Shown here: positions 8,626 through 45,517 of the stretch, piece by piece
Layout of the letters: each line of letters begins with the position of its first letter
Numbering within the stretch: position 1 is the first letter of the stretch
Origin: Planctomycetota bacterium
GTDB lineage: Bacteria > Planctomycetota > Phycisphaerae > Phycisphaerales > UBA5793
Assembly (NCBI GenBank): GCA_963205185.1
Contig: CAUJHZ010000027.1
Span: 1 to 57,924, forward strand
Length of the DNA stretch: 57,924 nt
Direction of reading: 5' to 3'
Notes under the pieces: generated by a model
Seen by the model: only the letters and a program-made list of their open reading frames with translations
The model's database searches: none
What the model was told of the DNA's origin: nothing
Translations under genes and position numbers: made by a program

Positions 8626-10065
8626 TCACAGGCCGGCTACGTTGCTCGTGGTGCACGAGCCGCCCTGAATGAGTTGCAGGAATCCACCGCACGCCTGGTT
8701 GCCGGCATTGCCGGAGATTGAGCCGCTGCCGTTGCCAGTCGAGAAGACGCCCGGAGGAGTAACAATCTGAAGCTGGCTACCACTCAGGCCGAGCTGCGTG
8801 CCGGCGCACGGCTGACCGTTGGGAATGACGAAACTGCCTTGCGACGTCGCAAACAGCAGCGCCTGCTGCGCGTTGGGCGCAGCTCCCGACCAGCTGACGG
8901 TCACCTGCCCCGGGCACGTGCCGGTGAGGCTCAGCGTGTAGCCGCCGCCCGTGCAGGTCGTGTTCAGGTGCACGGTGATGTTGTTGCTGTCGCGGTTGCT
9001 CACGACGAGATCGGCCGAGCCGTTGCCGTCGAGATCGCCCGCTTCGGCCGACTCGGGATTGGCGCCACTGGCAAAGAGCGTCGAAGCGCCGAACGCGCCC
9101 GAGCCGTTGTTGAGCAGTACGCCGAAGTTTCCAGAACTCTCGTGCGTCGTGATGAGATCGAGCGAGCCGCTGCAATCGATGTCGGCGACGTTGACGTTGG
9201 ACGTGTCAAGCCCGCCGGTCGGGTAGTGCACGGGGCCGCTGAAAGCCATGCCCCCGCTGGCGAGGAACACTGTGGCGCTCTCGAAGTTGTCGCCGTTGGT
9301 CGCCGCGGCGATGTCATCGCGCCCGCTGCCGTTGAGATCGGCAGCGATGATGCCCTCGGGGCGGCGCTGGCCGCCGACGGAGAGGGTTCCGGCGGGACTG
9401 AATGAGCCGCTGCCGTTGTTGGCGAACAGCGAGATGCTGCGGTCGTCGTGGTTGGAGACGGCCAGGTCGTTGTCGCCATCGCCGTCGAAGTCGCCCAGTG
9501 CCGCGCCGCGCGGCTCGGCGCCGGCCGCCAGGGTCGTCACGGCGAACGAGCCGCTACCGTTATTGATCAGCACACTGGCGCTGTTGCTGTCGCGATTGGC
9601 CACGGCCAGGTCAGCGATGTTGTCTCCATTCAGGTCGGCCACGCTCAGGCCGCGCGGATTGGCTCCGACGGCGAACGAGCCGCTGACCGTGAACGAACCG
9701 GCGTTGTTAATGAGGATGGTGACGCGCCCGGTGTTCTGCAGCGCGACGGCCAGGTCCGCGTCCGTGTCGCCGTCGAAGTCGGCCGCGACGATCGAGCCGG
9801 CGCCGCTTCCACTCGGAAGTTGGATCGAAGCGCTCTGGTTGAGCGAGCCGTTGCCGCTGTTGAGCAGGATGATCACGCGATCGGGCGTGTCAACCGTCAC
9901 GGCCACGTCGAGCCCGCCGGCATTGTCGAAGTTGGCAATCGCAGAGTCGGCGGGCCGCGGGCCAACCGCATAAGGAACCGGGGCCTGGAAACTCACTTGC
10001 CCGAAAGCGCTGGCGCCCAGGAACAGGCTGGGGGCGAGCAAAAGGAATCGTCGTCGAAGTGTCAT
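8626..10065 (-). CDS. Secreted FG-GAP/VCBS-repeat beta-propeller protein with Cys-rich C-terminal module
   Basis: From the ATG at 10065, preceded by GAAAGGAGAGCC, the product has 479 residues. A signal peptide (LLLAPSLFLGASAFGQ) is followed by about six or seven repeats of the form ADFDGDGxxDLAVxNxxxxxxxVLxNNGSGSF, the calcium-binding FG-GAP/VCBS blade of extracellular propellers. The last ~105 residues are a separate module with four cysteines in the motifs CPG, PCAGTxLGL, ACGGFLQL and CTTSNVA; the same module ends the protein at 43079-45517. No PEP-CTERM or other known sorting signal is seen. Function is unknown; such propellers usually bind ligands or surfaces outside the cell. Confidence 0.82.
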   Translation of the reverse strand: MTLRRRFLLLAPSLFLGASAFGQVSFQAPVPYAVGPRPADSAIANFDNAGGLDVAVTVDTPDRVIILLNSGNGSLNQSASIQLPSGSGAGSIVAADFDGDTDADLAVALQNTGRVTILINNAGSFTVSGSFAVGANPRGLSVADLNGDNIADLAVANRDSNSASVLINNGSGSFAVTTLAAGAEPRGAALGDFDGDGDNDLAVSNHDDRSISLFANNGSGSFSPAGTLSVGGQRRPEGIIAADLNGSGRDDIAAATNGDNFESATVFLASGGMAFSGPVHYPTGGLDTSNVNVADIDCSGSLDLITTHESSGNFGVLLNNGSGAFGASTLFASGANPESAEAGDLDGNGSADLVVSNRDSNNITVHLNTTCTGGGYTLSLTGTCPGQVTVSWSGAAPNAQQALLFATSQGSFVIPNGQPCAGTQLGLSGSQLQIVTPPGVFSTGNGSGSISGNAGNQACGGFLQLIQGGSCTTSNVAGL

Positions 10066-10261
10066 GGTGGCTCTCCTTTCGAGGTCTCTCGAAATCGCGA
10101 TGAAGTCCGTCGTGTCCGGCGCCGAGGGGCGGCGCCGACCCAGGCCGGTGGATTGCACGTGCAGTCCTGACTGACCCAGCCTTAGTCGATGGAACGGCGG
10201 TTTGTGAAATGCCCGCCTGCGGCTTTCGCCGCAGGCGGGAGGAGGAGGAAGTGGTGTGGCG

Positions 10262-10687
10262 TTACTGAATCTGCACGAACGAGGCCGAGATGCCCTGCCC
10301 GCCCCGTCCGACGCGGATGACGTCGTCGGTGTTGATGCGCGGGCCGGTGGGGCGGCCGTCGGCGCCGGGCGTGACGCCGAAGATGTCCTTGCGGAACGTG
10401 CCGCGGCCGAAGCCATTGGTCACCATGGTGCCGACGACGCGGCCGTTGATGGTGATCTGCAGAGTCATGTTCTGCGGGGCGTTCTCGACCTGGACCTCGA
10501 GGGTCTGGTCAAGCAGGCCGTTCTCGGGCGACTCTTTGTACTTGGCCTTGAGGACGACCCCGTTCTGCGTGGCGTTGGCTTCCCAGATCTTGTCGTCGGG
10601 GTTCGCCTGGGCCGAAGCGGTGTTGAACGCCATGAGGGCAAGCACGAGAACCGAAAGCAGCGAGGTGATTTTGCGAGCGGAAAACAT
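10262..10687 (-). CDS. Small secreted protein, function unknown
   Basis: A 141-residue product with a clear signal peptide (MFSARKITSLLSVLVLALMAFNTASA) and a mature part of about 115 residues that is polar, Gly/Asn/Asp-rich, has no cysteine and looks beta-stranded (LEVQVENAPQNMTLQITING). AGGAGAG stands 6 nt before the ATG. The gene is notable for a consensus sigma-54 promoter upstream (10792-10809), implying activation by an enhancer-binding regulator. I do not recognise the family. Confidence 0.75.
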   Translation of the reverse strand: MFSARKITSLLSVLVLALMAFNTASAQANPDDKIWEANATQNGVVLKAKYKESPENGLLDQTLEVQVENAPQNMTLQITINGRVVGTMVTNGFGRGTFRKDIFGVTPGADGRPTGPRINTDDVIRVGRGGQGISASFVQIQ

Positions 10688-13486: not shown

Positions 13487-14938
13487 GTGGCCAAAATTCT
13501 CGTCATCGAAGACGAAGAGAACCTGCGGTACTCGATCAAACGCACCCTGGCCAAGGCCGGGCACGCGGTGTTTGATGCCGATCAGGTGGCGCCTGCTCTG
13601 GAAATCGCCAGCGCACAGGAGCCCGAAGTGGTGATCACGGACCTCAATTTGCGCGGCGGCGACGATGGCCTGGAGATTGTCAAGCGGCTGCGGGCCGAGG
13701 GGCAGAGCGCCGCCGTAGTCGTGATCACCGCGTACGGTTCGGTGGAGACGGCCGTCGAAGCGATCAAACAGGGCGCCGATGAGTTTCTTCAGAAGCCGCT
13801 CTCGATGGAGGAACTCAAGGTCGTCGTCGGGCGCGTCCTCGAGAATCGCAAGGTGCGAAGCCGCCTCGACCTCTACGAGCGCATCGAGCGCTCAAGCCGC
13901 GGTGAAAAAGAAATGCTCGGCGCCAGCCCGGCGTGGCGCAAAACGGTCGAACTCGCTCAGCGCCTGGCCCAGTTGCCGGTCAAATCCGGGACCGAACCGA
14001 CGACCATCCTGCTGCTGGGCGAGACGGGCGTGGGCAAGGGCATGCTGGCGCGGTTCATCCACGAATCCTCGGCCGAGGCGAACGAGCCCTTCGTGCACGT
14101 CAATTGTTCGGCGCTGCCCGCCAATCTCATCGAGGGTGAACTCTTCGGCCACGAGAAAGGCGCCTTCACCGACGCGCGAGAGTCGCGCCAGGGACTCTTC
14201 GAACTGGCCGACGGCGGAACCATCTTTCTTGATGAAATCGGCGACATGCCCATCGAACTGCAGAGCAAACTGCTCATCGTCGTCGAGCAGGGCACCTTCC
14301 GCCGCGTCGGCGGGTCGACGGAGCGGCGCGTGAACATGCGCATCCTCGCCGCGACCAACCATGATCTGAAAGAACGCGCCGAGCGCGACGAGTTTCGCAG
14401 AGATCTGTTCTACCGGCTGAGCGGGCTGACGGTGCCGATCCCCGCCCTGCGCGATCGGCCGGGCGACGCGCTGCTCATTGCCGAATCGCTGCTGGCCGCT
14501 GCGGCTCGCAAGTTTCACCGGGATCGTCTGCACTTCACCGCCGAGACGAAGCGCGCCATCGAAGCGCACAACTGGCCCGGCAACGTGCGCGAACTGGCCA
14601 ACGCCATTCAGCGCGCCGCGCTGCTGGCCGAAGGCGACGCCGTGCAGCCGCACGACCTGGCGCTGGGCAGCACCAGGATTCCATCCGCTGCGCCCGGCGG
14701 CGCCGGCAGCGCCGCCCCGGCCCCGGCCGCCAGCATCGATGGTCTGACATTTGACTTCGATCACGGTTCGTTCACCGCCGAAGCCGTCGAAGAGCGGCTC
14801 ATCCGTGAAGCCCTGCGCCACGCGCGCGGCAATGTCTCGCGCGCGGCCAAACTGCTGGACATGAATCGAAGTTCGCTGCGCTATCGCATCGAGCGCTACA
14901 AGCTCGATGAGTTCATTCAGGAAGTGTCGACGACATGA
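13487..14938 (+). CDS. Sigma-54-dependent response regulator (NtrC family)
   Basis: A GTG start with AGGAG 6 nt upstream gives 483 residues. The receiver domain (1-120) has the phospho-acceptor Asp52 in VITDLNLRGG. The AAA+ domain (about 145-385) has Walker A GETGVGKG (178-185), the sigma-54 contact loop GAFTDA (225-230; the common form is GAFTGA), Walker B GGTIFLDEIGD and the arginine-finger region. The C-terminal Fis-type helix-turn-helix includes NVSRAAKLLDMNRSSLRYRI. It should activate sigma-54 promoters, and the consensus site at 10792-10809 is the only clear one seen in this window. Its stop overlaps the next gene by 4 nt (ATGA). Confidence 0.9.
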   Translation: MAKILVIEDEENLRYSIKRTLAKAGHAVFDADQVAPALEIASAQEPEVVITDLNLRGGDDGLEIVKRLRAEGQSAAVVVITAYGSVETAVEAIKQGADEFLQKPLSMEELKVVVGRVLENRKVRSRLDLYERIERSSRGEKEMLGASPAWRKTVELAQRLAQLPVKSGTEPTTILLLGETGVGKGMLARFIHESSAEANEPFVHVNCSALPANLIEGELFGHEKGAFTDARESRQGLFELADGGTIFLDEIGDMPIELQSKLLIVVEQGTFRRVGGSTERRVNMRILAATNHDLKERAERDEFRRDLFYRLSGLTVPIPALRDRPGDALLIAESLLAAAARKFHRDRLHFTAETKRAIEAHNWPGNVRELANAIQRAALLAEGDAVQPHDLALGSTRIPSAAPGGAGSAAPAPAASIDGLTFDFDHGSFTAEAVEERLIREALRHARGNVSRAAKLLDMNRSSLRYRIERYKLDEFIQEVSTT

Positions 14939-16479
14939 GCCGCATCTGCTTCCATTCCTGCTCACCGGTTTCGCTCTGCCTCGCGGCTGCCGTCGCGGCG
15001 TGCTTCACCGGCGCGTGCCTCGGCGACGACGATCCTCGCACCTATGCCGACCCCCTCGGCGACGCGGTTGTCCGCCGAACCGACTTCGGCGCCGACGGCC
15101 CGCTCAATGCGCAGGCCGGCTTACCTGATCTCCTCGGCATGGCGTATGGCGGATGGACCACCAGTTCTCCCACCACCAATCCCTACAACGGCCGGTGGAT
15201 CGATCCGCGCGACACAAACCTCTTCCGTATCGATCTCGTCTTCGACGGCGTGGTCAACCCTCCCGGGCCGCTCAATCTGCAGGGCGAGGGGTATGACCCC
15301 TTCCGGTACGGCTTGAATCCGGTCTACGGCTACATCGAGTTCGATCTCGACTCGCGCCTCGACACCGGCGGCGAGATCGACAACGTCCGCAACCGCCCGC
15401 TGGGCAACGTGTCGCGCTTCGGCGGACGCTTCGGAGATTCCGTCGGCGAGCGCGCCGCGATTACCGCGGGCGACTTCGACGGCAATCTGCTCACGGCGCC
15501 GCTCGTCGAGCGTTCCGGCGAAGAAATGCACCTGGCTTTCTGCGCCTGTTTCGGCGTCACCATCACGCCGATCAACGATCCAACTCCCAACACGTTCGAC
15601 GCCGGCGACACGTGGATTGTCGCCGGGCGCTTCCTCGCGCGCACGCACGCTTTCAGCCAGTACAGCGGCGCGTTCGGCGGGTCGCGCTCGGGTGAATACG
15701 ACCCGGTCATCAAACTGCGCTTCCAGCATGATGTGCCCAGCGATCGGACGACCATCACGCTTATCCACGGCCTGGACAACAGCGGCACGGCGGCGCTGCT
15801 CGGCCAGGCGACGCAGCCCATCGACTTCAACGCGGGCAATCAGACCAGCATCCTCGAGTTGCTCACCGAGATCCGCTTCACCGCCCAGCACACCAATGAC
15901 CCGGGCCAGGGCACGCCGTTCGATCTGCTCCGCGACTGGGCGGACAACAACCACGCCGAACTCGATGAGTATCTCCGCGTCCAGCAGTGGGAAGTGCTCG
16001 CCCTTGTCGGCACCACTTATGCGCAGGCGCAAAACGATGCGATCCTCGTCTGGACCGATGTCGGACCCGATTTCGGCAAGGGTGATTGCGATGGCGATGG
16101 ATTCGTCAACGGTCAGGATCAGCAGGTGCTGATGACCGCCATCGCCAACTCCGACGGCACTTCATTCGACGCCGATGGCCAGCCGAATGGTCAGACTACC
16201 CTGCGCGATTTCGGCCTCAACTTCGCGCTGTACGATCTCGATTACGACGGCATCATGGGCTCGCTCGATCTCGCCCAGATCGGCTACGAGAAGCCCGGCG
16301 ACGTGAACAGCAACGGCCGCGTGAACCAGTTCGACCTCGCGCTCATCAAGGCGATGCGCGGCTTGCGGGCCGGCCACCCGCTGTTCAATCCAGCGGCGGA
16401 CATGAACCACGACGAGCGCATCGACTCGCTCGACGAGCAGCTCTTCATCGACATGATCGTCGGGAGCGTGCGGCGCTAG
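14935..16479 (+). CDS. Secreted protein with dockerin-like calcium loops
   Basis: The 514-residue product begins with a signal peptide (CLAAAVAACFTGACLG). The body (about 30-380) is beta-rich and unassigned. The C-terminal 135 residues contain four EF-hand-like loops: DCDGDGFVNGQD, DLDYDGIMGSLD, DVNSNGRVNQFD and DMNHDERIDSLD, the dockerin type I pattern common on exported Planctomycetota proteins. The ATGA overlap with the NtrC-type gene suggests co-expression with the two-component pair, so it may be its sensor accessory or simply downstream cargo. Its stop codon shares CTAG with the converging alpha-2-macroglobulin gene. Confidence 0.75.
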   Translation: MSRICFHSCSPVSLCLAAAVAACFTGACLGDDDPRTYADPLGDAVVRRTDFGADGPLNAQAGLPDLLGMAYGGWTTSSPTTNPYNGRWIDPRDTNLFRIDLVFDGVVNPPGPLNLQGEGYDPFRYGLNPVYGYIEFDLDSRLDTGGEIDNVRNRPLGNVSRFGGRFGDSVGERAAITAGDFDGNLLTAPLVERSGEEMHLAFCACFGVTITPINDPTPNTFDAGDTWIVAGRFLARTHAFSQYSGAFGGSRSGEYDPVIKLRFQHDVPSDRTTITLIHGLDNSGTAALLGQATQPIDFNAGNQTSILELLTEIRFTAQHTNDPGQGTPFDLLRDWADNNHAELDEYLRVQQWEVLALVGTTYAQAQNDAILVWTDVGPDFGKGDCDGDGFVNGQDQQVLMTAIANSDGTSFDADGQPNGQTTLRDFGLNFALYDLDYDGIMGSLDLAQIGYEKPGDVNSNGRVNQFDLALIKAMRGLRAGHPLFNPAADMNHDERIDSLDEQLFIDMIVGSVRR

Positions 16480-19400
16480 GGCGTCTCGGGACGTTCCTCC
16501 ACGTTCACGCGAATCTCGCTACTGTTGGCCCGCACCTCCGGCAGGTACATCGCATGGCCGAGCAGCGGCAGGGCGTGGAAGCGGCCGGGCACTTCGGCCC
16601 GCGCTTCGTAGCGCACCTGCCAGTACCCCTGGCCGAGCTGGTCCACGAAGAACGCCACCTTGCGGTCGCGCAGTTCCTGATGCACCCAGCGCGAGCGGCC
16701 CGTCAGATTGCTCGCGTCGCCCGTGATCGACCACGGGTCGAACGCCCGCCGGCCATCCTGATCGGTCGCCTGCCCATCGGCAAAGAGGCGCTGCGCGGCA
16801 GAGTTGGTGAGTTGATGGATGTACATCGATTCGCCGCTGCGGATCTGCGTCGCCTCGAAGCCCGCCGGCTTGAGGTCTTCGAGCACGAGATACTCATAGT
16901 CGTTCTTGGCTTCGATGGTGAGTACGACCTCGACCCGGTCGCCGCTGTTGATGTGGTCTTCATCCCCCAGCGGCACGCGCAGATACTCAACGCCGCTGAG
17001 CAGCGTGGGCGCGGGCACGAGGCGGTAGTAGTCGCGGCGCACGAAAATCTCGTTGCCGGCCGGCGTCACGGGTTCCTCGGTTGAGAAGAACTCCGCCTGG
17101 GCCGCGAAGTAGAGCGCCGTGTCGCCTTCAAGGCGGCGGATGCGGATCGTGTTGGCGCCTGACTGGATGCTCGCCGCCGGCACGGCGAAGACCGCCGGGG
17201 CGCTGAGAATGCTCTCGCGCGTCACCTCCGACTTGCCGACGAGGCGACCGTTGACCATCACCTCATAGCGGCCGGTGGCTTCGAGTTCGCCGCTGGCGCG
17301 AAGGTAGTCGCACAGCGTGAGCACGGCCATGGCGGTGTCGCGCGTGTTGGTCCATTGCGCGCCGCGCCGGTTGCGGATGAGCCAATTCGTCGCAGGCTCG
17401 ATAAGTTCGCTATCGGGCGCGATCGCCAGCAGCGCGCGGAGGCACAGCGTGGTGGACTCAATGCCGCCGTCCCACCAGTAGCGATAGCCGCCTTCGCGCC
17501 CCCAGTGCGCGGTGCCCATGACGGTGGCTGGCGAGCCGTCGGCGTTTTTGACGAGGATCGACTGGTCCGGGCGGTCGTCGCGGATCACGCCGTTTTCGAG
17601 ATTGCGAGCCAGCGTCTGCGCCTGCTCGGCTTTGCCGAGATAATGAGCGCTGAGCGCCAGCAGAGCCCGGCCGGTGGCGCTGAGTTGATCGCGCTTCTGC
17701 CACAGGTTGTCAAACGCCGTCGCGACCGCTGCGTGCGCCTCGAGCGGCTGGCTCGTCGCTTTGCTTGCGGCCAGGGCATGGAGCATCCACGCCTGGAGTT
17801 CCGGCACGTCGCGCGCCGTGTTGAGGCGCTGCACGAGATAGTCCGCGCCGGGTGTGATCATGTCGCCGGCCACGTCGAGTTCCGCCTGCCGCGCCAGCGC
17901 CAAGCCCCAGACGACGTACGCGGTCATGTAGCGGTCGCTCTCGCCGCCTTTCCACCAGCCCCAGCCACCGTCATCGTGCTGCATGTCATCGAGCCGGCTC
18001 AGGCCCGCGGCAACGATCTCGTCGAGTTGATCGAGCCCCTTTGCATCGCCGCGCGGCTGCGCGGGCTTGCCTTGCGCCATCTCGATGCCGCCGAAAGTGC
18101 GATCGGCCACGTCCTCGGCTTCGAGCCCGAGATCGGTCAGTGTGCGATTCACAATCACCGCCGGCAGGAAGCGGCTCATGGTCTGCTCGACGCAGCCGTA
18201 CGGATAGTCGAGCAGGTAAGGCAGGGCGTCGAGCATCGTCACGGCCATGCTTGGCGTGACCTGTACGCTCATGGTCGTCGTGCCGACGCGCCGAGCTTCG
18301 GGAAGTTCGAGCGTCACGATCGCCTGATCGCCTCGCGCCTTGCCGGAGACGGCCACGAATTTGTCGATGCCGTGGTCATGCACGGGGAACGTGGCGCGCA
18401 CGGCGTCGGCGATTTCGGTGTCCTCAATCTTGGTTCGGACGGTGACCGCAGCCGTGCCGCTCTTGTCGGCAATGAACTTGAGATCGAATCGCGTCTCGCC
18501 GCCCGGATCGATGACGCGGCCGGCGCCGGGCGCGAGTCGATCGTGGAAGTTGCCGTCTCCGCCGCGCCGGCCGCGGTAGATCAGGCCCTCCATGTCAACG
18601 AACGGGAGTTGCGAGATGCGCTCGTCCGTGTTGTTGCGGACGATGTAGGAGATGACGAACTCATCGCCGACGGTGATGAAGCGCGGCCCCTGGATGCGCA
18701 CGGTGATGGGCTTGTTGGTGCGCGCCGTGGTCTCACCCATGCCAAACTTCGCGCCCGTCGTATTGGCGCGCGTCTCGGCCTTCCAGCGCGTGAGGGTTTG
18801 CGGGTAGGGGACGGTGACGGCAGCGCTGCCGGTTTCGTCGGTGATCACGCTCGCGTTCCACAAAGCCGTGGCGCGGAAGTCCGTGCGCACGACGATGTCG
18901 GCCGGCGGCTGGCCCTGCTCGGGCGATCCGGCGGGCGGCGCGCCGGCGGCCTCAGACGCCGGGCTGGCCATCGAGTACGCGGCGAAGTCCTCGCTGGATT
19001 TGGCCCTCAACATCTCGCCCGAGTCATCGCGGAAGAAGCCGGTGGAACCGCCGCCTCCAACGGCGGCATTGCTGCGCGCGCCTTCCCTTCCCTCCGCGAC
19101 GAAGCGAGCATCTTCGTACCGACCTGATTCGGTCTTGACAAGGCGAATCAGCGGCAGTTCTTCCAGGCTGCCGTCGGTCATGACGGCGTTGCGCTGCTTG
19201 CGATCGTAAAAGAACGCGCGCGGATCACCGGCGTACGCGCTCTGGATGTACAGCACTGATTCGTCGAACACCGACACCGCGACTTCCGCCGAAGCCGGGC
19301 GGCCTTGGTGGTCGGTCGTCGTGATCTGGAGCGTGCCCTCGGCGCCGGGTTCGTACATCTCCTGGTCTGCCGTAACGGCGACATTGAGAAACTGTTCGAC

Positions 19401-22400
19401 CGGCGGAACGACAATCTCCTCGCTCGTTTGGGACATCTCTGCGCCGCTCACCATCGCCGCCGAGAGGAACACGTTGGGGATGTAGGCGTCGCGCACGTCG
19501 ATGTTGAGGAGTTTGACCGTGCCGGGCACGTGCACGAGTTGCCACTCGTACAACTCCTCGCCTTCGATGGTGAACAGCACATAGCGGTTGCTCGATGAGG
19601 TCGAGATCATGACCGGCGCGGTCGCGCCGGCCGTAAACGTGCCCTTGTCGGCGATGATTTCGACGCCGTCGTTGTGGTAGCCCAGGCTCGCCGTCTGCTG
19701 CGTCGTCACCCACGCTGCCGTTTGCGCCGTCACGGGCGCGAGCGGCGGATCGGGGCTGACCCATTCGATGATGTAGTAGCCTTCGCGCTGGGCGGTGAAA
19801 GCGAACGTCGCCTCGCCGTTCTCATCAGTCACCACCTTCTCCGACGCCACTTTTTCGGAGCGGTACCCGCGAAAGATCGGCTGCCACCGGTGGTGTTCTT
19901 CAGGGCGTGGCGGAGGCGGAAAGACGCCGTACTGCTCGCGCAGCCGCGCGACGCCGTCGAGAAGCACTTCCCGGCCGGCAGGATCGACCCACACCTCATC
20001 CCACCATTGGCGCGTCACCGTCACCGTGCCTTGCACCGCCACCGGAGATCCGTTGGGGTCGAGCGCCTTAATGCTGGTCTCGATCTTGTCGCCGGGCCGG
20101 TGAATCTTGTGCGCCACCTCCGGGTAGACGAAGTAACTCTGCCTCGTCACGCGCACGCTCCCGCTTCCGGTGATCTCGCGCCGCGACAGGTCGGTCACGC
20201 GCGCTTCGATGGTGTATTCGTAGTCCTGATCGGCGTCGAAAGGCGTCTCGAAGGTGATGCGGGCCCGACCCTCGGCGTCAGTCTTGAGTGTCTCAGTCTT
20301 GATCGTCTCGCCGGTCCACCAGCCGTAGTAGTTCCAGCGATCCGAGTCGTCGTAGAGCCACGGGTAGGCGCGCGGCCGCTCGTACGTGTGCCAGAAGGGC
20401 CGCTGCTTGACCACGACCTCCACGTCGGCGCTGGCGACCGGGCCGCCGAAGTAGTATTCAGCGATGATGTCGGCGGTCACGACGTCGCCCATGCGGAACA
20501 GCTGCGGCTTGCCGTCTTCGCCTTCGAGCGGCTTGACCGTCACCATGAACTCCGGCAGTTTGTACTCCTCAAGACGAAACAGCGTAGCAGACGCCACCTG
20601 ATTCTCGTTGCCGGCCGCATCGCGCGTGCTGAACTGGATCGTGTACTCGCCCAGCGGCCAGTCGGACTGGAGTTGCAGCGAGGCGAACGCGCTGCCGAAC
20701 TCACTCAGCTTCGCCTCGCCGTCGAAGACCGCGGTATCGCGCGAATCGACGATGCGGTAGTGCAGCGTCCGTCCGGCGGGGGTGGTCCAGCCGTTCTGAC
20801 TCCAGGTGCGCGCGACGAAGCGATAGTTCGCCGTGTCGCCGGGGCGGTAGGCCGGGCGATCGCTGTGCGCATAGATGCGCCACTGCTCGCTTTCGTCGCT
20901 GCGGTCCCACCAGTAACCGTCGTAGGACGTGAGGATCGTCTGCCGCGCGCCGTCGCCGGCGAGAATGAGCAGACTCACATCCTCCGAGGAGCCGATCGCG
21001 GCCTTGGCCTGCAGATGGGCGATCCCCTGAGCATCGGCCGCGGCGGTGTAGCTGTTACCCGTCCACTGCTGCCCCTCAGATGTCGTGGCGAGATCCCACG
21101 CGCGGAACTGAACATCCGGCGCCGGTGCGCCCGTGAGCGCATCGCACGCGTAGAGCAGCACCTTTTCGCCCCGCCGTTTGGAGATGACCACCAGGTCGCT
21201 CACCAGCACCAGATCGACCACGCGGAGATCCGCTCCCGCCTGAGCCACGAGAATGTACGCGCCGCCCGGCAGCGGCTCATCGAGTTGAATCTGATCAGAC
21301 ATCGGCTCATGCCGGCCCGTGTCGCCGGTCTGTTTTGACCACTTGCGCGCCACCTCCGCGCCGGTTAGATCCACGTGGCGGATCCACGCCTCGGCCACAC
21401 CGCCCGAGGAGTGGCGCCAGTTGTCCGGCTCATCAGATTTCACAGCGCCCGTGAGAGCGGTGCGCTCGCGCAGGTTGACGCGGTAGAGGACGAAGTCGAT
21501 CTGCTCCACATTGCGCCACTGGGCGTCAAACGCGATCTCGGAATTGGGCAGAAAGGCCTGGCTCACGTACACGTTCAGCGCCGGCAGAACGATGTCGTTG
21601 TAACGCCGGAGCACTTCGTCGCGATCAATCTCCTCCGGCTTGAATTCATCGAGCAGGCGCTTGTAGAGTTCGGCGGCACGGACGTAGTCAGGTTTCCAGT
21701 TCCACTGGCCGCTCTCGAGCACGTCGACCTCGCCATAGCGCGTGCACCATTCCGCGAAGGCCATCAGCGCATCCACGTAGCGCGAGTCGCGAGCGCCGGT
21801 TTCAAGCGCCGCTTCGAAGTGCCTGGTGACCTGCTGGATCGAGCGCGGGTCGCGGCCGGTCACGTGGCGCATCTTCATCGCAATCTCAAAGTGCGCGCGG
21901 GTGCGGTCGGATTCGCTTTGCGCGATCTGGAGCACGTTGCGCAGCACGTCGAGCGGGACGACGGTGTATCGGCCGCGCCAGCGCCAGTCGCCTCCCTCGG
22001 CGTCGAGCGCGCGCCAGACGATGGAGATGTAGCGATCGCGCGCGGCGTCAATGTCGCTGCTGTTCGCCCACCACTGCAGCGCCTGCGCGTAGTACGACCA
22101 GGCCGACTGGGCATTCGAGCGGCGGGCGCCCTGCAGCCACGAGTCGCCGAGCGATTCATTGGCCGCCGCCCAGACGAGATCGCGGTCCTCCATCCGATCG
22201 ATTTCATCGACGAGTGCGGTCAGTTGCTTGCGCGCGGCCTGCAGGGAGTCGTCGGCCGCATCGCTCGGCGCAGCGCGCCAGAGCGTGTCTGCCAGGCGGA
22301 AACGCACCCAGCGCTGCTCCGCGGCCGGCACATCGAGCGCTTTCGCCTGCTCGTAGAGTTCGTGCGCCCGGCTGTAGGACTTTTCAGCGTAGAACTGCTC

Positions 22401-22556
22401 GGCCTGCTGCTTGATCTGCTCATAGCGGCCGTCCTGGGCCCGTGCCGATCGAACGCCACCGAAAAGACCGAACAGGAGCGCGGCGAACAGCAGGGTGCGA
22501 ATCAGTGCGGCACCGCGATCCGGCAGGATGCGGGCGGCGGCAGGCGTTGCAGACAT
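16476..22556 (-). CDS. Bacterial alpha-2-macroglobulin family protein with thioester
   Basis: A 2026-residue exported protein, one of the largest in the window. After a signal peptide (TLLFAALLFGLFGGVRSARA) the first ~330 residues are helical and TPR-like (QQAEQFYAEKSYSRAHELYEQAKAL). MG domains follow, with the A2M bait-region neighbourhood, then the thioester motif GCVEQ (Cys1455, codons 18183-18197), and an alpha/alpha-toroid with DDGGWGWWKGG. The thioester should trap attacking proteases covalently in the periplasm or at the surface. Most bacterial homologues are either lipoproteins beside pbpC or much shorter; this one has no lipobox, has a long helical N-terminus and no pbpC beside it. 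GGATGGAG precedes the ATG. Confidence 0.9.
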   Translation of the reverse strand: MSATPAAARILPDRGAALIRTLLFAALLFGLFGGVRSARAQDGRYEQIKQQAEQFYAEKSYSRAHELYEQAKALDVPAAEQRWVRFRLADTLWRAAPSDAADDSLQAARKQLTALVDEIDRMEDRDLVWAAANESLGDSWLQGARRSNAQSAWSYYAQALQWWANSSDIDAARDRYISIVWRALDAEGGDWRWRGRYTVVPLDVLRNVLQIAQSESDRTRAHFEIAMKMRHVTGRDPRSIQQVTRHFEAALETGARDSRYVDALMAFAEWCTRYGEVDVLESGQWNWKPDYVRAAELYKRLLDEFKPEEIDRDEVLRRYNDIVLPALNVYVSQAFLPNSEIAFDAQWRNVEQIDFVLYRVNLRERTALTGAVKSDEPDNWRHSSGGVAEAWIRHVDLTGAEVARKWSKQTGDTGRHEPMSDQIQLDEPLPGGAYILVAQAGADLRVVDLVLVSDLVVISKRRGEKVLLYACDALTGAPAPDVQFRAWDLATTSEGQQWTGNSYTAAADAQGIAHLQAKAAIGSSEDVSLLILAGDGARQTILTSYDGYWWDRSDESEQWRIYAHSDRPAYRPGDTANYRFVARTWSQNGWTTPAGRTLHYRIVDSRDTAVFDGEAKLSEFGSAFASLQLQSDWPLGEYTIQFSTRDAAGNENQVASATLFRLEEYKLPEFMVTVKPLEGEDGKPQLFRMGDVVTADIIAEYYFGGPVASADVEVVVKQRPFWHTYERPRAYPWLYDDSDRWNYYGWWTGETIKTETLKTDAEGRARITFETPFDADQDYEYTIEARVTDLSRREITGSGSVRVTRQSYFVYPEVAHKIHRPGDKIETSIKALDPNGSPVAVQGTVTVTRQWWDEVWVDPAGREVLLDGVARLREQYGVFPPPPRPEEHHRWQPIFRGYRSEKVASEKVVTDENGEATFAFTAQREGYYIIEWVSPDPPLAPVTAQTAAWVTTQQTASLGYHNDGVEIIADKGTFTAGATAPVMISTSSSNRYVLFTIEGEELYEWQLVHVPGTVKLLNIDVRDAYIPNVFLSAAMVSGAEMSQTSEEIVVPPVEQFLNVAVTADQEMYEPGAEGTLQITTTDHQGRPASAEVAVSVFDESVLYIQSAYAGDPRAFFYDRKQRNAVMTDGSLEELPLIRLVKTESGRYEDARFVAEGREGARSNAAVGGGGSTGFFRDDSGEMLRAKSSEDFAAYSMASPASEAAGAPPAGSPEQGQPPADIVVRTDFRATALWNASVITDETGSAAVTVPYPQTLTRWKAETRANTTGAKFGMGETTARTNKPITVRIQGPRFITVGDEFVISYIVRNNTDERISQLPFVDMEGLIYRGRRGGDGNFHDRLAPGAGRVIDPGGETRFDLKFIADKSGTAAVTVRTKIEDTEIADAVRATFPVHDHGIDKFVAVSGKARGDQAIVTLELPEARRVGTTTMSVQVTPSMAVTMLDALPYLLDYPYGCVEQTMSRFLPAVIVNRTLTDLGLEAEDVADRTFGGIEMAQGKPAQPRGDAKGLDQLDEIVAAGLSRLDDMQHDDGGWGWWKGGESDRYMTAYVVWGLALARQAELDVAGDMITPGADYLVQRLNTARDVPELQAWMLHALAASKATSQPLEAHAAVATAFDNLWQKRDQLSATGRALLALSAHYLGKAEQAQTLARNLENGVIRDDRPDQSILVKNADGSPATVMGTAHWGREGGYRYWWDGGIESTTLCLRALLAIAPDSELIEPATNWLIRNRRGAQWTNTRDTAMAVLTLCDYLRASGELEATGRYEVMVNGRLVGKSEVTRESILSAPAVFAVPAASIQSGANTIRIRRLEGDTALYFAAQAEFFSTEEPVTPAGNEIFVRRDYYRLVPAPTLLSGVEYLRVPLGDEDHINSGDRVEVVLTIEAKNDYEYLVLEDLKPAGFEATQIRSGESMYIHQLTNSAAQRLFADGQATDQDGRRAFDPWSITGDASNLTGRSRWVHQELRDRKVAFFVDQLGQGYWQVRYEARAEVPGRFHALPLLGHAMYLPEVRANSSEIRVNVEERPETP

Positions 22557-22853
22557 GGTGCTTCTCCATCCCGGATAGTCGCGTCAACAAATCAGGACGC
22601 ATGAACCCGGCCAATCTTACCCGTTCCGGGCGGTTTCCCCGGCACTCCGTCCCCGCCGGCCAAAGTCCGGTAGGGCGCCGGCGCAGACGGCACCATCGAC
22701 ACGACCGGCGCGGCTTCAAGCGCAACGCAGCCGTATCGCTCGACGCCGCGCCAAACCGTGGCACCCTTGATCTGGTGGAGTTCAGCGCGCGATGCGGCTT
22801 CACCGCCCAGGATCGAGATCGCGCAAAACTGCAGACGCGGAAGGAATCACGTC
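22557..22853. other. Divergent intergenic region
   Basis: 297 nt between the alpha-2-macroglobulin gene and the next secreted protein. Apart from the two Shine-Dalgarno sites I see no convincing promoter hexamers, hairpins or RNA gene. Confidence 0.4.
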
Positions 22854-23843
22854 ATGCGCATGGCAGCGGTAACGGCAGTGTGTGCGACCCTGATGCTCAT
22901 TCAGGCCGGTCCGGCGCACGCCCAGGTGCAGGAGTTCTCCAGCGACGTGGACAACTGGCTTTACAACGCCGACCAGGTGCAGCGATTCGCCTTCGACTCG
23001 TTCTACCCCGGCATTGACGACAAGGGCGATCTCACGCCGCAGACCGTCAGCATCGACCTCGGCGTGACCCAGCTGACCATCACGCGCAACGATGGCGGCG
23101 GCGCGCTGCGCGATGCGAGCATTCCGTTCGGCTGGGTCTCCGATGCGCCGCTCTATGCCACGAGCGGCCCCGGCTCGACGTGGGAGTTCTCCACGCCCAT
23201 CTATTCCTTTTACGTCTACTACGGCTCGCTTTCGATCACGTCCCAGGCGGCCATGAAGCTGTACTCGGGCGGCCAACTCATCGCGACCGTCATGCGCTAC
23301 AGCGGAAGTCTCGACGGCGTGTTCGCCGTCGGCCAGGGGTTCGTTTCGCAGACGCCCATCGACAAGATCGAGTTCTACAAAGCCGGGTCGGGCGATTCGG
23401 TGCTCATCGGCGCTTTCGTGGGCCTTGCCGACGGAGAGCCCTCGCTGGGCACCGTGCGCATCTCCGGCTATCGCGGCCCGCAGGGCGAGGTCGTCGATTA
23501 CGACTTTGCCCTCACCACAACACGCCCCAATCCGTTCAAACTCACCGTCGGCCAGCTCGTCGGCGGACAGGATGCCGACTTCTCCGCGGTCGGCGGCGCG
23601 CCCGCGACTCGCTCTTACCTCATTTATAGTCTGACCGGGCTCGGACAGGTGTACATCCCGCAGCTGAACGTCACGGCGGGGATCCGCAACCCCATTCAGG
23701 CCGGCCCGGCGCGGAACACCGACGCCAACGGCGCCGTCTCGTGGCGCCTTCCCATTCCGGCCAACGCGCGCGGCCGCGATGTATGGTTCCAGGTGCTTCA
23801 GCCGGGCAAGGCGAGCACGGTCGTGGCGACCTGGATCAACTGA
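22854..23843 (+). CDS. Secreted protein, function unknown
   Basis: GGAAGGA stands about 9 nt before the ATG at 22854; a second in-frame ATG two codons on is equally usable. The 329-residue product has a signal peptide (VCATLMLIQAGPAHA) and two probable beta-sandwich parts: residues about 20-185, resembling exported carbohydrate-binding or PEP-CTERM-type domains in style (GSTWEFSTPIYSFYVYYGSL), and a C-terminal Ig-like part (about 215-325; NPFKLTVGQLVGGQDADFSA...). No PEP-CTERM tail. No family can be named with confidence. Confidence 0.7.
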   Translation: MRMAAVTAVCATLMLIQAGPAHAQVQEFSSDVDNWLYNADQVQRFAFDSFYPGIDDKGDLTPQTVSIDLGVTQLTITRNDGGGALRDASIPFGWVSDAPLYATSGPGSTWEFSTPIYSFYVYYGSLSITSQAAMKLYSGGQLIATVMRYSGSLDGVFAVGQGFVSQTPIDKIEFYKAGSGDSVLIGAFVGLADGEPSLGTVRISGYRGPQGEVVDYDFALTTTRPNPFKLTVGQLVGGQDADFSAVGGAPATRSYLIYSLTGLGQVYIPQLNVTAGIRNPIQAGPARNTDANGAVSWRLPIPANARGRDVWFQVLQPGKASTVVATWIN

Positions 23844-32657: not shown

Positions 32658-32783
32658 TTAGCCTGCACTGATTGGGGGTGCGTGAGCAGGCAGCTGCATT
32701 GGTGAGACCGTGGCCGCTGCCAGGAAGTATCGGGGGCTGCTCGCGTGATGCGCGGCGGCAACTCAAGGCCTTGGCGAATCCTT

Positions 32784-32820
32784 CTCAAGAAGTGGTTTCT
32801 TGAGTTTCTGTCGACAGAAA
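32784..32820 (+). promoter_or_regulatory. Hairpin plus 16-bp perfect palindrome in the leader
   Basis: CTCAAGAA-GTGGT-TTCTTGAG (32784-32804) forms an 8-bp perfect stem, and directly abutting it TTTCTGTCGACAGAAA (32805-32820) is its own reverse complement. The pair lies 21 nt before the ATG. The palindrome could be a repressor operator, or both could be RNA elements controlling translation of the PEP-CTERM gene. Confidence 0.5.
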
Positions 32821-32841
32821 TTGGTTTTGGAGGAGAAGAAA

Positions 32842-33471
32842 ATGAAGATAGCCTTACTTGCAGGCGCCGCGGCGCTCGCTCTGTCTGGAGCGGCGTTCGG
32901 CGACGTGTGGGCCGAGCAGGGCGATGCCGGACAGTCCATCGCGACTGCCCAGCACACCGTCGGCCTCGGATCGCTGGACGCGATTCGCGGTCATCACGAC
33001 CCCAATGACGTGGACATCTATTGCATCCGCATTCTCGATATCCGGTCCTTCAGTGCGAGCACCGTGGGCGGCACCAGCATCGACACGCAGCTGTTCCTCT
33101 TCGATGCGAACGGCTACGGCGTGACCCACAACGACGATGATCCGGCCGGCGGCAGCCTGCAGTCCAAGATCACCGGCGCGTTCGTCACTTCGCCGGGCCT
33201 CTACTACCTGGCCATCAGCCAGTACAACGCCGATCCGTCGTCGATCTCCGGCTTGATCTGGGCCAACAGCCCGTTCAATGTCGAGCGCGCTCCGGATGGC
33301 CCCGGCGCCGGTGACCCGCTCAACTCGTGGAGCGTTTCGGGCACCACCGACGGCGACTACTCGATCGCTCTCGTCGGCGCGGGTTTCTGCGAAATCCCCG
33401 CTCCCAGCGCGCTGGCGCTGCTCGGACTCGGCGGAATCGCCGCGGCCGGCCGCCGTCGTCGTCAGGCGTGA
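32842..33471 (+). CDS. PEP-CTERM-type exported protein
   Basis: A 209-residue secreted protein: signal peptide (MKIALLAGAAALALSGAAFG), a beta-sandwich body of about 160 residues with the pre-peptidase-like pattern DVDIYCIRI...DTQLFLFDANGYGV and PGLYYLAISQYN, and a C-terminal sorting signal IPAPSALALLGLGGIAAAGRRRRQA (Pro-rich start, one hydrophobic helix, basic end). This tail is recognised by exosortase-type machinery that links export with exopolysaccharide. GGAGGAG precedes the ATG. It is monocistronic: own leader upstream and a terminator downstream. Confidence 0.85.
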   Translation: MKIALLAGAAALALSGAAFGDVWAEQGDAGQSIATAQHTVGLGSLDAIRGHHDPNDVDIYCIRILDIRSFSASTVGGTSIDTQLFLFDANGYGVTHNDDDPAGGSLQSKITGAFVTSPGLYYLAISQYNADPSSISGLIWANSPFNVERAPDGPGAGDPLNSWSVSGTTDGDYSIALVGAGFCEIPAPSALALLGLGGIAAAGRRRRQA

Positions 33472-42769: not shown

Positions 42770-43078
42770 GGGGGACAGGCCTTTCTGCTGCGGGTCTGCT
42801 CAAGAAACGGGAGTGCTCGCCGGCACGTCCGGGCCGGCATTCATCCGTTCATCCGGATAGTTGGATGTAGTGACAGGTCGATGATAGGCTGGTCGCACGG
42901 CGGGGGACAGGGGAGCTGCGCCTGGCTGGCTAGCGATCGAGATTGGCCGGCGTAAGTCATGAGGATTATGGCCTCTTTTCCGAACTTTGCGGATTGGTCG
43001 GTGCCTGGGCAGCGCCCCTTCGGTTAGACTGTAGTAGAAGCCGCTTCTATCATGAATCGAGCAAAGGAGGGTCAGCCG
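42770..43078. other. Divergent region between metK and the propeller gene
   Basis: 309 nt without a gene. On the minus strand GGATGAAC and GGATGAAT stand in tandem beside CCGGATG. A strong AAGGAGG Shine-Dalgarno for the propeller gene is at its right end (about 43065). No riboswitch or RNA gene is seen. Confidence 0.45.
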
Positions 43079-45517
43079 ATGCAGGATCGGGCTCATTCGA
43101 TGGGAGGTGATGCTCGAACGTCGCGCTGCTGGAGCGTGGTGATCGCGCTGAGCGTGGCATGGCTCACGTCGCGCGCGATGGCGCAGTGCGACACATGGGT
43201 CGCCGCCGGACAGGGGTATTGGCAGGGTGGTGAAGTCCAGGCTGTCGTTGAGTACCATGGCGAACTCATCGCCGGTGGTTACTTTACCAACGCCGGTGGA
43301 GCCGAGGCGATGCGGCTGGCGCGCTGGGATGGCCTTGCCTGGCGCCCGTTCGGCGCCGGCGTCAGTGGCACTTCGTTCGTGGGCGTTTCGGCCCTGCTGG
43401 TGAGCGGCGATGACCTGTACATCGGCGGGAGCTTCACCGAAGTGGACGGCGTCCCAGCGGACAATGTTGCCCGGTGGGATGGATTTGAGTGGCACCCCTT
43501 GGGCGATGGTACTGACGGGCCCGTCAAGTGCATGACCATCTTCCAAGACGAACTGCACGTCGGGGGGTACTTCGAGCAGGCAGGCACGATCCGCGCCAAC
43601 GCCGTCGCCCGATGGGACGGCAGTGGATGGCATGCGCTCGAACGCGGCGTGCGACAATACAACGGTTCGCCGGGCGCTGCGCTTGCGCTGGTTGAGTACC
43701 AGGGCGAGCTCGTGGCCGTCGGTGACTTCTTACGCGCCGGATCGGAAATCGTCAATAACGTGGCCCGCTGGAACGGAGCCTCATGGTCAAGCCTTCAGAA
43801 CGGCGCGAACTCCTCCCTCAATACCGCCTGCGTTTTCCAGGATGTCCTTTTCATCGGCGGCTCACTTACCGGCGCGGGCGGCCAGGATGCCCCCGGAGTA
43901 GCGGCTTGGAACGGCCAACGATGGTTTCCCGTCGGAGAAGGGTTCGGCCCCGCCCCTCAATCGCACGACGTGCGCTCTCTTGTGGTTTGGAACGACACGC
44001 TGTGTGCCGGCGGGTCGTTTGAATCGTCCGGTGGTCGCACCGTCTGGCGAGTGGCGGCCTTCGTGAATGGGCAGTGGCAGCCTCTTGGCTCTGGGGCAAG
44101 CTCGCCCGTCTACGCGCTCGGTTCCTACCAGGGCGTCCTGGTCATCGCAGGGTCATTCGCTGAGGTGGACGGCCTTCAAGTCAACTCGATCGCTCGCTGG
44201 AATGGCGAGGCGTGGACGGGCTTCGGCGGCGGCCTCCGGCGCCCCGGCGGTGCGGATGCGCTGACGGAATTCGAAGGGGAACTGGTCGCTTCGGGAACAT
44301 TCTTCGGCCTCCCTGAACAGGGTTTCGGTCCGATTGCGCGCTGGGATGGTCAGACCTGGCGCGGCATACCAGATGGCCAGTCGTTCATCTTGTCCAATAT
44401 TGACAGCCTCGCGGTCTACAACGGTGAACTGATTGCCGGCGGGACGTTTAAGGGCCGCTCAACTCGGTCGATCGTCGCCAGCATAATGCGATGGGATGGC
44501 TCCCGGTGGGATTCACTTGGAGATGGAGTCAACGGGCGGGTTCGATCGCTCCTCGCTCACGCTGGCTTCCTGGTCGCCGGGGGTCACTTTACCGAAGCCG
44601 GTGGCCATGGGGCGGAGCATGTAGCGTTATGGGATGGCGACGACTGGAGATCCATGGGTGCGGGATTGGACAGCACAGTTCTGACCTTGGCGCCATACCA
44701 GAGCAGCGTCGCAGCCGGGGGGTACTTTCGCGCTTCCGGAAGGCGCGACGTGAATCGAGTTGCCTGGTGGGATGGACAGCGCTGGCTTCCTCTCGGAGAA
44801 GGGATGGATGGTGCGGTCGCCTCGCTCGTCGTCTTCAATGGCGATCTCATCGCCGGCGGTGAGTTTCTCAATGCTGGAGGACGGCCGGCGAATCATGTGG
44901 CGCGATGGGATGGCGAACAGTGGCACAGCCTTGGTCTCGGGTTTGACGATGAGGTGGTGGCTCTGGAGGTATACAACGGCGATCTCGTCGCCGTCGGTGA
45001 ATTCTCAACCGCCGACGGAGAGCCGGCTCGGCACGTCGCGCGGTGGGACGGCGTGCGCTGGCGCCCAATGCATCTCGGATTGGGCTTTCCCGCCCTCTCG
45101 CTGCGCACGTATCAGAATGCACTCGTGGTCGTGGGCATGTTTGAAGAGGCGGGAGGCCTGGCAGCGTATGGTTCGGCCCAATGGCGCGATTGCAATCTGA
45201 GCATTCAACTTGACGTGAACACGACATGCCCCGGCGGCGGGCCGATCGAGGTCTCTTGGACCGGCGCGACGCCTGATGCCAGCGTGGCGATCATCTTTGC
45301 CGCCGCCACCGGCAACTTCGCCGTGCCCTACGGCCCATGCGCCGGGACGAGGCTCGGCCTCGGTGCGCAGGCAATCCGCCTTGCGGCGACCGCCCGATCC
45401 GATGCGCAAGGTGCCGGTGCGATTCAGGGGACCGCCCCCCCGGCCGCCTGCGGCGGTTATCTCCAGCTGCTTGATCTGACCACCTGCCAAACGAGCAGCG
45501 TCGCGCGCATCGAGTGA
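43079..45517 (+). CDS. Secreted 13-repeat beta-propeller protein with Cys-rich C-terminal module
   Basis: ATG 43079 is chosen over one nine codons upstream because AAGGAGG stands at proper distance. The 812-residue product has a signal peptide (VIALSVAWLTSRAMAQ), then about 13 repeats of ~50 residues of the form VARWDGxxWxxLGxGxxGxVxAL...GxLxAGGxFxxAGG, which should fold as beta-propeller blades. Residues about 705-812 are the module shared with the FG-GAP protein at 8626-10065, with cysteines in CPGG, PCAGTRLGL, ACGGYLQL and CQTSSVA. There is no PEP-CTERM or dockerin. It is probably a large extracellular or surface protein of unknown ligand. Confidence 0.8.
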   Translation: MQDRAHSMGGDARTSRCWSVVIALSVAWLTSRAMAQCDTWVAAGQGYWQGGEVQAVVEYHGELIAGGYFTNAGGAEAMRLARWDGLAWRPFGAGVSGTSFVGVSALLVSGDDLYIGGSFTEVDGVPADNVARWDGFEWHPLGDGTDGPVKCMTIFQDELHVGGYFEQAGTIRANAVARWDGSGWHALERGVRQYNGSPGAALALVEYQGELVAVGDFLRAGSEIVNNVARWNGASWSSLQNGANSSLNTACVFQDVLFIGGSLTGAGGQDAPGVAAWNGQRWFPVGEGFGPAPQSHDVRSLVVWNDTLCAGGSFESSGGRTVWRVAAFVNGQWQPLGSGASSPVYALGSYQGVLVIAGSFAEVDGLQVNSIARWNGEAWTGFGGGLRRPGGADALTEFEGELVASGTFFGLPEQGFGPIARWDGQTWRGIPDGQSFILSNIDSLAVYNGELIAGGTFKGRSTRSIVASIMRWDGSRWDSLGDGVNGRVRSLLAHAGFLVAGGHFTEAGGHGAEHVALWDGDDWRSMGAGLDSTVLTLAPYQSSVAAGGYFRASGRRDVNRVAWWDGQRWLPLGEGMDGAVASLVVFNGDLIAGGEFLNAGGRPANHVARWDGEQWHSLGLGFDDEVVALEVYNGDLVAVGEFSTADGEPARHVARWDGVRWRPMHLGLGFPALSLRTYQNALVVVGMFEEAGGLAAYGSAQWRDCNLSIQLDVNTTCPGGGPIEVSWTGATPDASVAIIFAAATGNFAVPYGPCAGTRLGLGAQAIRLAATARSDAQGAGAIQGTAPPAACGGYLQLLDLTTCQTSSVARIE

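Follow-up and report, generated by a model that had tools for sequence, protein, structure and literature searches.

The C-terminal domain reported here constitutes an undescribed superfamily of Planctomycetota, and it probably acts as a folded tag by which exported proteins are sorted to, or anchored in, the cell envelope; the kind of element, a C-terminal sorting or anchor signal, is already known. Its terminal position, the diversity of its cargo, the paired loss of its cysteines and its exchange with the PEP-CTERM signal are supported by sequence, the signal peptides of its carriers by a crude test and its Ig-like fold by prediction. The domain came to attention in a stretch of 57,924 nucleotides (here called the window) from a Phycisphaerales genome, where a preliminary description had pointed to a four-cysteine module at the ends of two exported propeller proteins.

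The first copy of this four-cysteine (C4) domain lies at positions 8629-8943 of the minus strand, running to the stop codon at 8628-8626, and its cysteines, in the order described beforehand, are residues 501, 537, 576 and 588 of protein P0001 (residues 20, 56, 95 and 107 of the modelled segment). The open reading frame that it ends spans 8626-10416 on the minus strand. The protein likely starts at 10065 (MTLRRRFLLLAPSLFLGASAFGQ), the 117 residues of the frame upstream of this point are probably not protein, and the host with this start (8626-10065, minus strand) consists of a signal peptide, FG-GAP repeats and the C4 domain. The same order of cysteines recurs in the second copy (45194-45514, plus strand), which ends an 821-aa Rax2/DUF5122-like propeller protein (43052-45517, plus strand) composed of a likely signal peptide, propeller repeats and the C4 domain. 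Homology between the two is clear from BLASTP, which aligned 115 aa at 41% identity with E=4e-26, and Pfam confirmed that the repeats preceding them belong to different families, FG-GAP (FG-GAP_3) in the first host and Rax2/DUF5122 in the second. This likeness is not due to chance, since about 114 copies are present in the same genome, nearly all of them 2-6 residues before the stop codon. A third relative at 23535-23840 (plus strand, up to the stop codon) had been missed: it is a cysteine-free member of a variant, A2, homologous to C4, and its host, a 361-aa ORF (22758-23843, plus strand), carries a signal peptide near MRMAAVTAVCATLMLIQAGPAHAQ and a cargo without Pfam match. The window also encodes another C-terminal module, a type I dockerin at the end of a 514-aa exported protein (14935-16476, plus strand), as well as a bacterial alpha-2-macroglobulin of 2026 aa with bait region, TED and MG10 domains (16479-22556, minus strand).

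A single-sequence search of the genome of the window (G000, Phycisphaerales, 4.55 Mb, 97% complete) gave 114 C4 matches. By an iterated profile run on 72 stretches, 71 from G000 and one from its relative G005, together with the window, we recovered 148 domains in 147 ORFs: 106 with at least four cysteines (C4), 34 with three or fewer, and 8 truncated or otherwise atypical. Contig starts truncate two of the 34, which are C4 copies; the remaining 32 make up alignment A2, a variant with 0 or 2 cysteines, while A1 is the alignment of the C4 domains. Comparison of the two profiles with hhalign gave a probability of 98.6 and E=5.5e-16 over 95 columns and, judged by this homology and by the terminal position common to both, C4 and A2 are one superfamily. 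When the whole genome was searched with A2, 125 matches were found at E<=1e-5. By our count, about 20 of these overlap C4 matches and about 105, including some fragments, do not; the combined number is therefore about 220 matches, given here as ~200 domains, so that the two copies first reported turned out to be a large undercount.

The position of the domain within its carriers is nearly invariant. Four of the 148 domains run off a contig end; of the 144 others, whose 3' end is known, 142 lie within 18 residues of the stop codon, and in the C4 group the distance is 2-6 residues. The module is C-terminal with two exceptions, namely, in L041, the inner of two copies in tandem, and a C4-like domain (L084:8994-9266, minus strand) followed by 107 cysteine-rich residues before the stop. 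Signal peptides are enriched: a crude, home-made test, applied identically to both sets, scores 88 of 103 C4 carriers, compared with 185 among the 613 remaining ORFs of these loci. Some 20 carriers measure no more than 130-200 residues and pass directly from signal peptide to domain, with no cargo between them. Stand-alone C4 mini-genes are also arranged in arrays (L016:254-2239 and L054:9397-10338), in which they alternate with fragments coding the last ~50 residues of an A2 domain; the units of the repeated block are 81-83% identical at the DNA level, as if a unit of A2 tail and C4 gene had been duplicated. A different repeat, of 134-149 bases and 94-96% identical, is found at L016:37-185 and at the ends of contigs C36, C50, C28, C72 and C38. 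Its reverse strand resembles what we take to be the start of a transposase, and the assembly therefore probably breaks at an insertion element.

We analyzed the cysteine pattern in 251 aligned full-span domains, which are related to one another and hence are not independent observations. All four cysteines are present in 184 and none in 29; 28 retain just the second and fourth, and a single domain (L093) has just the first and third. Six were scored as lacking the first cysteine, which is in fact present but shifted in the alignment, and three are odd: L135 has the third and fourth only, L132 the first and second (its tail was read out of frame), and L116, which is cut short, the first only. 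Because the cysteines are lost in these matched sets, two disulfides are likely, one joining the first with the third and the other the second with the fourth. This agrees with the two disulfides suspected beforehand and assigns the partners.

Structure prediction by AlphaFold2 gave confident models (pLDDT 88.9 for A1 and 94.6 for A2), both of them beta-sandwiches, and C4 and A2 domains are accordingly predicted to be Ig-like. Foldseek returned no PDB match at E<=0.001 with either model. With VIA-align, where Z under 8 may mean merely a common arrangement, the C4 model matched first the Fn3 domains of Pel3 and PelI (Z 8.8-8.3; 8.8 for Pel3 and 8.5 for PelI, 81 residues, rmsd 2.4), and the A2 model matched Nir2, neocarzinostatin-type and other Ig-like folds with Z up to 9.9. 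Because these matches are at the common Ig/Fn3 level, our claim extends to the class of fold but to no particular relative. Type IX C-terminal domain (CTD) structures do not appear in the structure-match lists, an absence that is informative neither way. A PDB sequence search found no match with A1 and, with A2, a weak one to the neocarzinostatin family protein C-1027 (E=0.0029). The neocarzinostatin apoproteins (C-1027, macromomycin) thus resemble A2 both in this weak profile match and in structure (VIA Z 8.5-8.8 over ~90 residues), but they are chromophore carriers, A1 has no PDB match, and neither C4 nor A2 has a Pfam match.

The rank of the pectate lyase domains bears on the alternative that the domain is recognized by type II secretion, the secretin complex reading it as it reads the Fn3 domain of PelI/Pel3. 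The latter is the best structural match of the C4 model, is Fn3-like and carries an export signal, loop 3 of this Fn3 being a key type II secretion signal (PMC7949064), and GspD-like secretins were detected in all nine genomes searched. However, Ig/Fn3 folds that are unrelated to each other also reach a Z near 8, genomes lacking the tag possess secretins no less than those with it, and the PelI domain is N-terminal, whereas ours is C-terminal; the Fn3 family is also absent among the Pfam matches of C4 and A2 domains, and the likeness is one of common fold. We consider recognition by type II secretion very unlikely. This estimate overlaps with that of the sorting reading itself, because type II secretion is one specific form of a tag read by a machine.

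No named family was known for the module, and none emerged. Pfam searches with 76 C4 and 32 A2 domains at E<=1 gave no convincing family match, NCBIfam searches with 79 C4 and 30 A2 full-length carriers found no family for the domain, nor did PHROGs, and no description of it was found in the open literature. The profile searches linked the two copies first noticed and matched no existing sorting or carbohydrate-binding family. The closest analogy is with the type A CTDs of type IX secretion, which are Ig-like domains of ~80-110 residues, C-terminal after a Sec signal peptide and attached to many diverse cargoes (PMC4804311, PMC10202324). The CTD (PF18962, TIGR04183) resembles our domain in size, in C-terminal position after a signal peptide, in copy number and in the fold class predicted for the latter, the seven-stranded Ig-like sandwich of type IX CTDs having a possible counterpart in our confident Ig-like models; it differs in that the C4 form has four conserved cysteines, in its host, which here is Planctomycetota, and in giving no sequence match. 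If the domain were a diverged type IX CTD, with a type IX machine present, its likeness to type A CTDs in size, position and Ig-like fold class would be explained (PMC4804311, PMC10202324). Yet PF18962 or any other Pfam model was matched convincingly by none of the 76 C4 and 32 A2 domains, and the type A and type B models (PF18962/TIGR04183 and PF13585/TIGR04131) had no Pfam or NCBIfam match with C4 or A2, including the 79 and 30 full-length carriers. SprA, moreover, was not matched in 8 genomes, in a search without working positive control in which control genomes were silent too, and type IX secretion is reported as restricted to Bacteroidota (PMC10202324). A type IX origin is therefore barely credible.

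The carriers were examined for what precedes the domain. Clustering by similarity divides the 119 carriers longer than 200 residues into 68 groups, of which 46 hold a single member. Among the families matched on C4 carriers are Kelch, SBBP, FG-GAP, subtilase, CHRD, beta-helix and choice-of-anchor B, J and Q; M14 carboxypeptidase, BNR and HAF repeats are further ones matched on A2 carriers. Members of the NCBI choice-of-anchor families end in differing anchor signals; our tables show these families by name alone. The original picture of a mobile domain at the ends of exported propellers thus stands in that the domain is C-terminal and common to unrelated exported proteins, but it is not tied to propellers: subtilases, carboxypeptidases, beta-helices, Ig-like and choice-of-anchor proteins carry it as well, and ~20 proteins have no cargo at all. 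The domain tree requires 19 changes for 9 cargo families, with a minimum of 8; this hints at shuffling among cargo families, although the domain is short. A glycine-rich linker was dropped as a feature because its enrichment ahead of C4 is only weak (1.76 per 10 aa, compared with 1.25).

Among the signals already known, PEP-CTERM/exosortase (PF07589, PF09721) is likewise a C-terminal tag on many signal-peptide proteins, and on the same cargo. PEP-CTERM is a short motif with a transmembrane helix and basic residues (PMC1569441), whereas the C4/A2 domain is soluble and folded, without the helix; indeed, its C-termini are soluble and beta-strand-like, and PF07589 is not among the families matched. 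We removed the tails of the PEP-CTERM proteins of G000, of a congener and of a genome of a sister family and compared the remainder with C4/A2 cargo. Three cargo types in G000 bear both kinds of tail, a C4/A2-type domain and PEP-CTERM. The cargo of the C4-tagged protein L031:8754-9632 is 71.5% identical over 144 aa to that of the frame at 32749-33468 of the window (plus strand, stop to stop), whose protein likely starts at an internal Met (MKIALLAGAAALALSGAAFG) and ends in PEP-CTERM (EIPAPSALALLGLGGIAAAGRRRRQA). Between L020 (domain) and L219 (PEP-CTERM) the cargo is 71% identical over 203 aa, and L037 and L040 (domain) share 46-50% over ~180 aa with L221 (PEP-CTERM). In full alignments, cargo homology stops at the tail junction, as in GAGFG-NAGGYFLSISGQCPG versus GAGFC-EIPAPSALALLGLGG. 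At L060, two adjacent genes, 66% identical over 693 aa, end in C4 and A2 tails, respectively. As read from these alignments, the swap shows an exchange of position and says nothing on the identity of the destination.

This exchange on homologous cargo is our main ground for seeing in the domain a sorting or anchoring tag, the role guessed in the preliminary description and the best reading now. Two other explanations were weighed against it. The domain could be a ligand-binding or adhesive Ig-like module, terminal by chance, that binds a matrix polymer, cells or itself and gives its carrier an activity rather than an address. The Ig-like fold is compatible with such a module, as are the stand-alone proteins of signal peptide and domain, some in tandem arrays, but binding modules are usually also internal and multiple, whereas this domain occurs once per protein and is almost always terminal, and its exchange with an established sorting tag is exact at the junction, on very different cargo. 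We regard a binding module of this sort as quite improbable. Alternatively, the domain could cap exported repeat proteins, serving their folding or stability by protecting the C-terminus, with no part in localization; this would suit a compact, disulfide-locked terminal domain and the many repeat proteins among the cargo. A cap seems a poor candidate, given that the domain is found also on compact enzymes and on proteins without cargo, and that its exchange with PEP-CTERM, a membrane-spanning tag, would be left unexplained. Some observations do count against the tag reading: no partner family recurs beside tagged genes in a neighbour-gene survey of ~1.2 Mb with crude gene calls, one copy has the 107-residue extension, and one tandem pair exists.

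The domain has a patchy distribution in the phylum. By single-sequence search, four congeners of G000 have from 73 to at least 116 copies each and one other genus of the same family has 44, while 35 genomes from other families of the order have none. Among 294 genomes of the phylum, with 15 candidates scored per genome, A1 matched 17 and A2 matched 42, mostly in family f62 with scattered others; with the same scoring, no genome listed from the same class outside f1, the family of the window genome, matched. A contig search with a closer set (A3), which reaches near relatives only, named Phycisphaerales UBA5793 and the MAGs PLA1, PLA5 and PNC21 as carrying the domain; the label of PLA1, Vicinamibacteraceae, is taken as a mislabel. 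PEP-CTERM matches number 11, 17, 15 and 3 in the tag-rich genomes G000, G001, G003 and G005, against 86 and 19 in G010 and G006, same-order genomes without the tag; G000 possesses both systems, with 2 exosortase matches beside its 11 PEP-CTERM matches. It is suggestive that the tag has largely replaced PEP-CTERM in the lineage of the window genome, and suggestive only, because the genomes are few.

Two candidates for a partner of the tag were rejected: the secretins, for their equal presence in genomes without it, and VKOR, found only in G000, G003 and G010, the last of which has no tag. At L235 (G000:C61:45500-57500) there is a secretin-like open frame of ~3569 aa, matched on the minus strand at G000:C61:46141-56478, which combines a C-terminal domain of the GspD type with numerous tandem matches to the secretin N-domain. 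Such frames measure 3568-3580 aa among congeners and are longer in G010 (4217 aa) and G006 (4754 aa).

As a sorting or anchoring tag, the domain would work in three steps. The carrier would be exported by Sec, the tag would fold and be oxidised in the periplasm, and the folded tag would then be recognized, its cargo passing to, or staying at, the outer membrane or surface. Recognition may take one of two modes. A putative outer-membrane export or attachment machine, by analogy with that of the type IX C-terminal domain, could read the tag, which we hold to be quite possible, if somewhat short of even. Direct binding of the tag to an envelope polymer is rather unlikely, although the ~20 stand-alone proteins of signal peptide and tag speak for this mode, being more easily understood as binding or coat proteins than as bearers of a mere export signal.

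A wider proposal, which we put forward tentatively and at well under an even chance, is that Planctomycetota have an outer-membrane export and attachment system of their own, neither type IX nor exosortase, whose substrates carry this folded, disulfide-locked Ig-like tail, and that family f1 moved most of its surface proteome to it from PEP-CTERM. As the distribution in the phylum is patchy, the partner of the tag can be searched for by phylogenetic profiling, and the natural PEP-CTERM swaps are ready matched pairs for experiment. If the sorting reading is true, much of the cell surface in an uncultured group of planctomycetes would be defined by a tag that ~200 proteins of a single genome carry. 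The existence of such a folded tag with disulfides beyond the Bacteroidota would then imply that C-terminal Ig-like sorting has more than one origin or a broader range than hitherto assumed.
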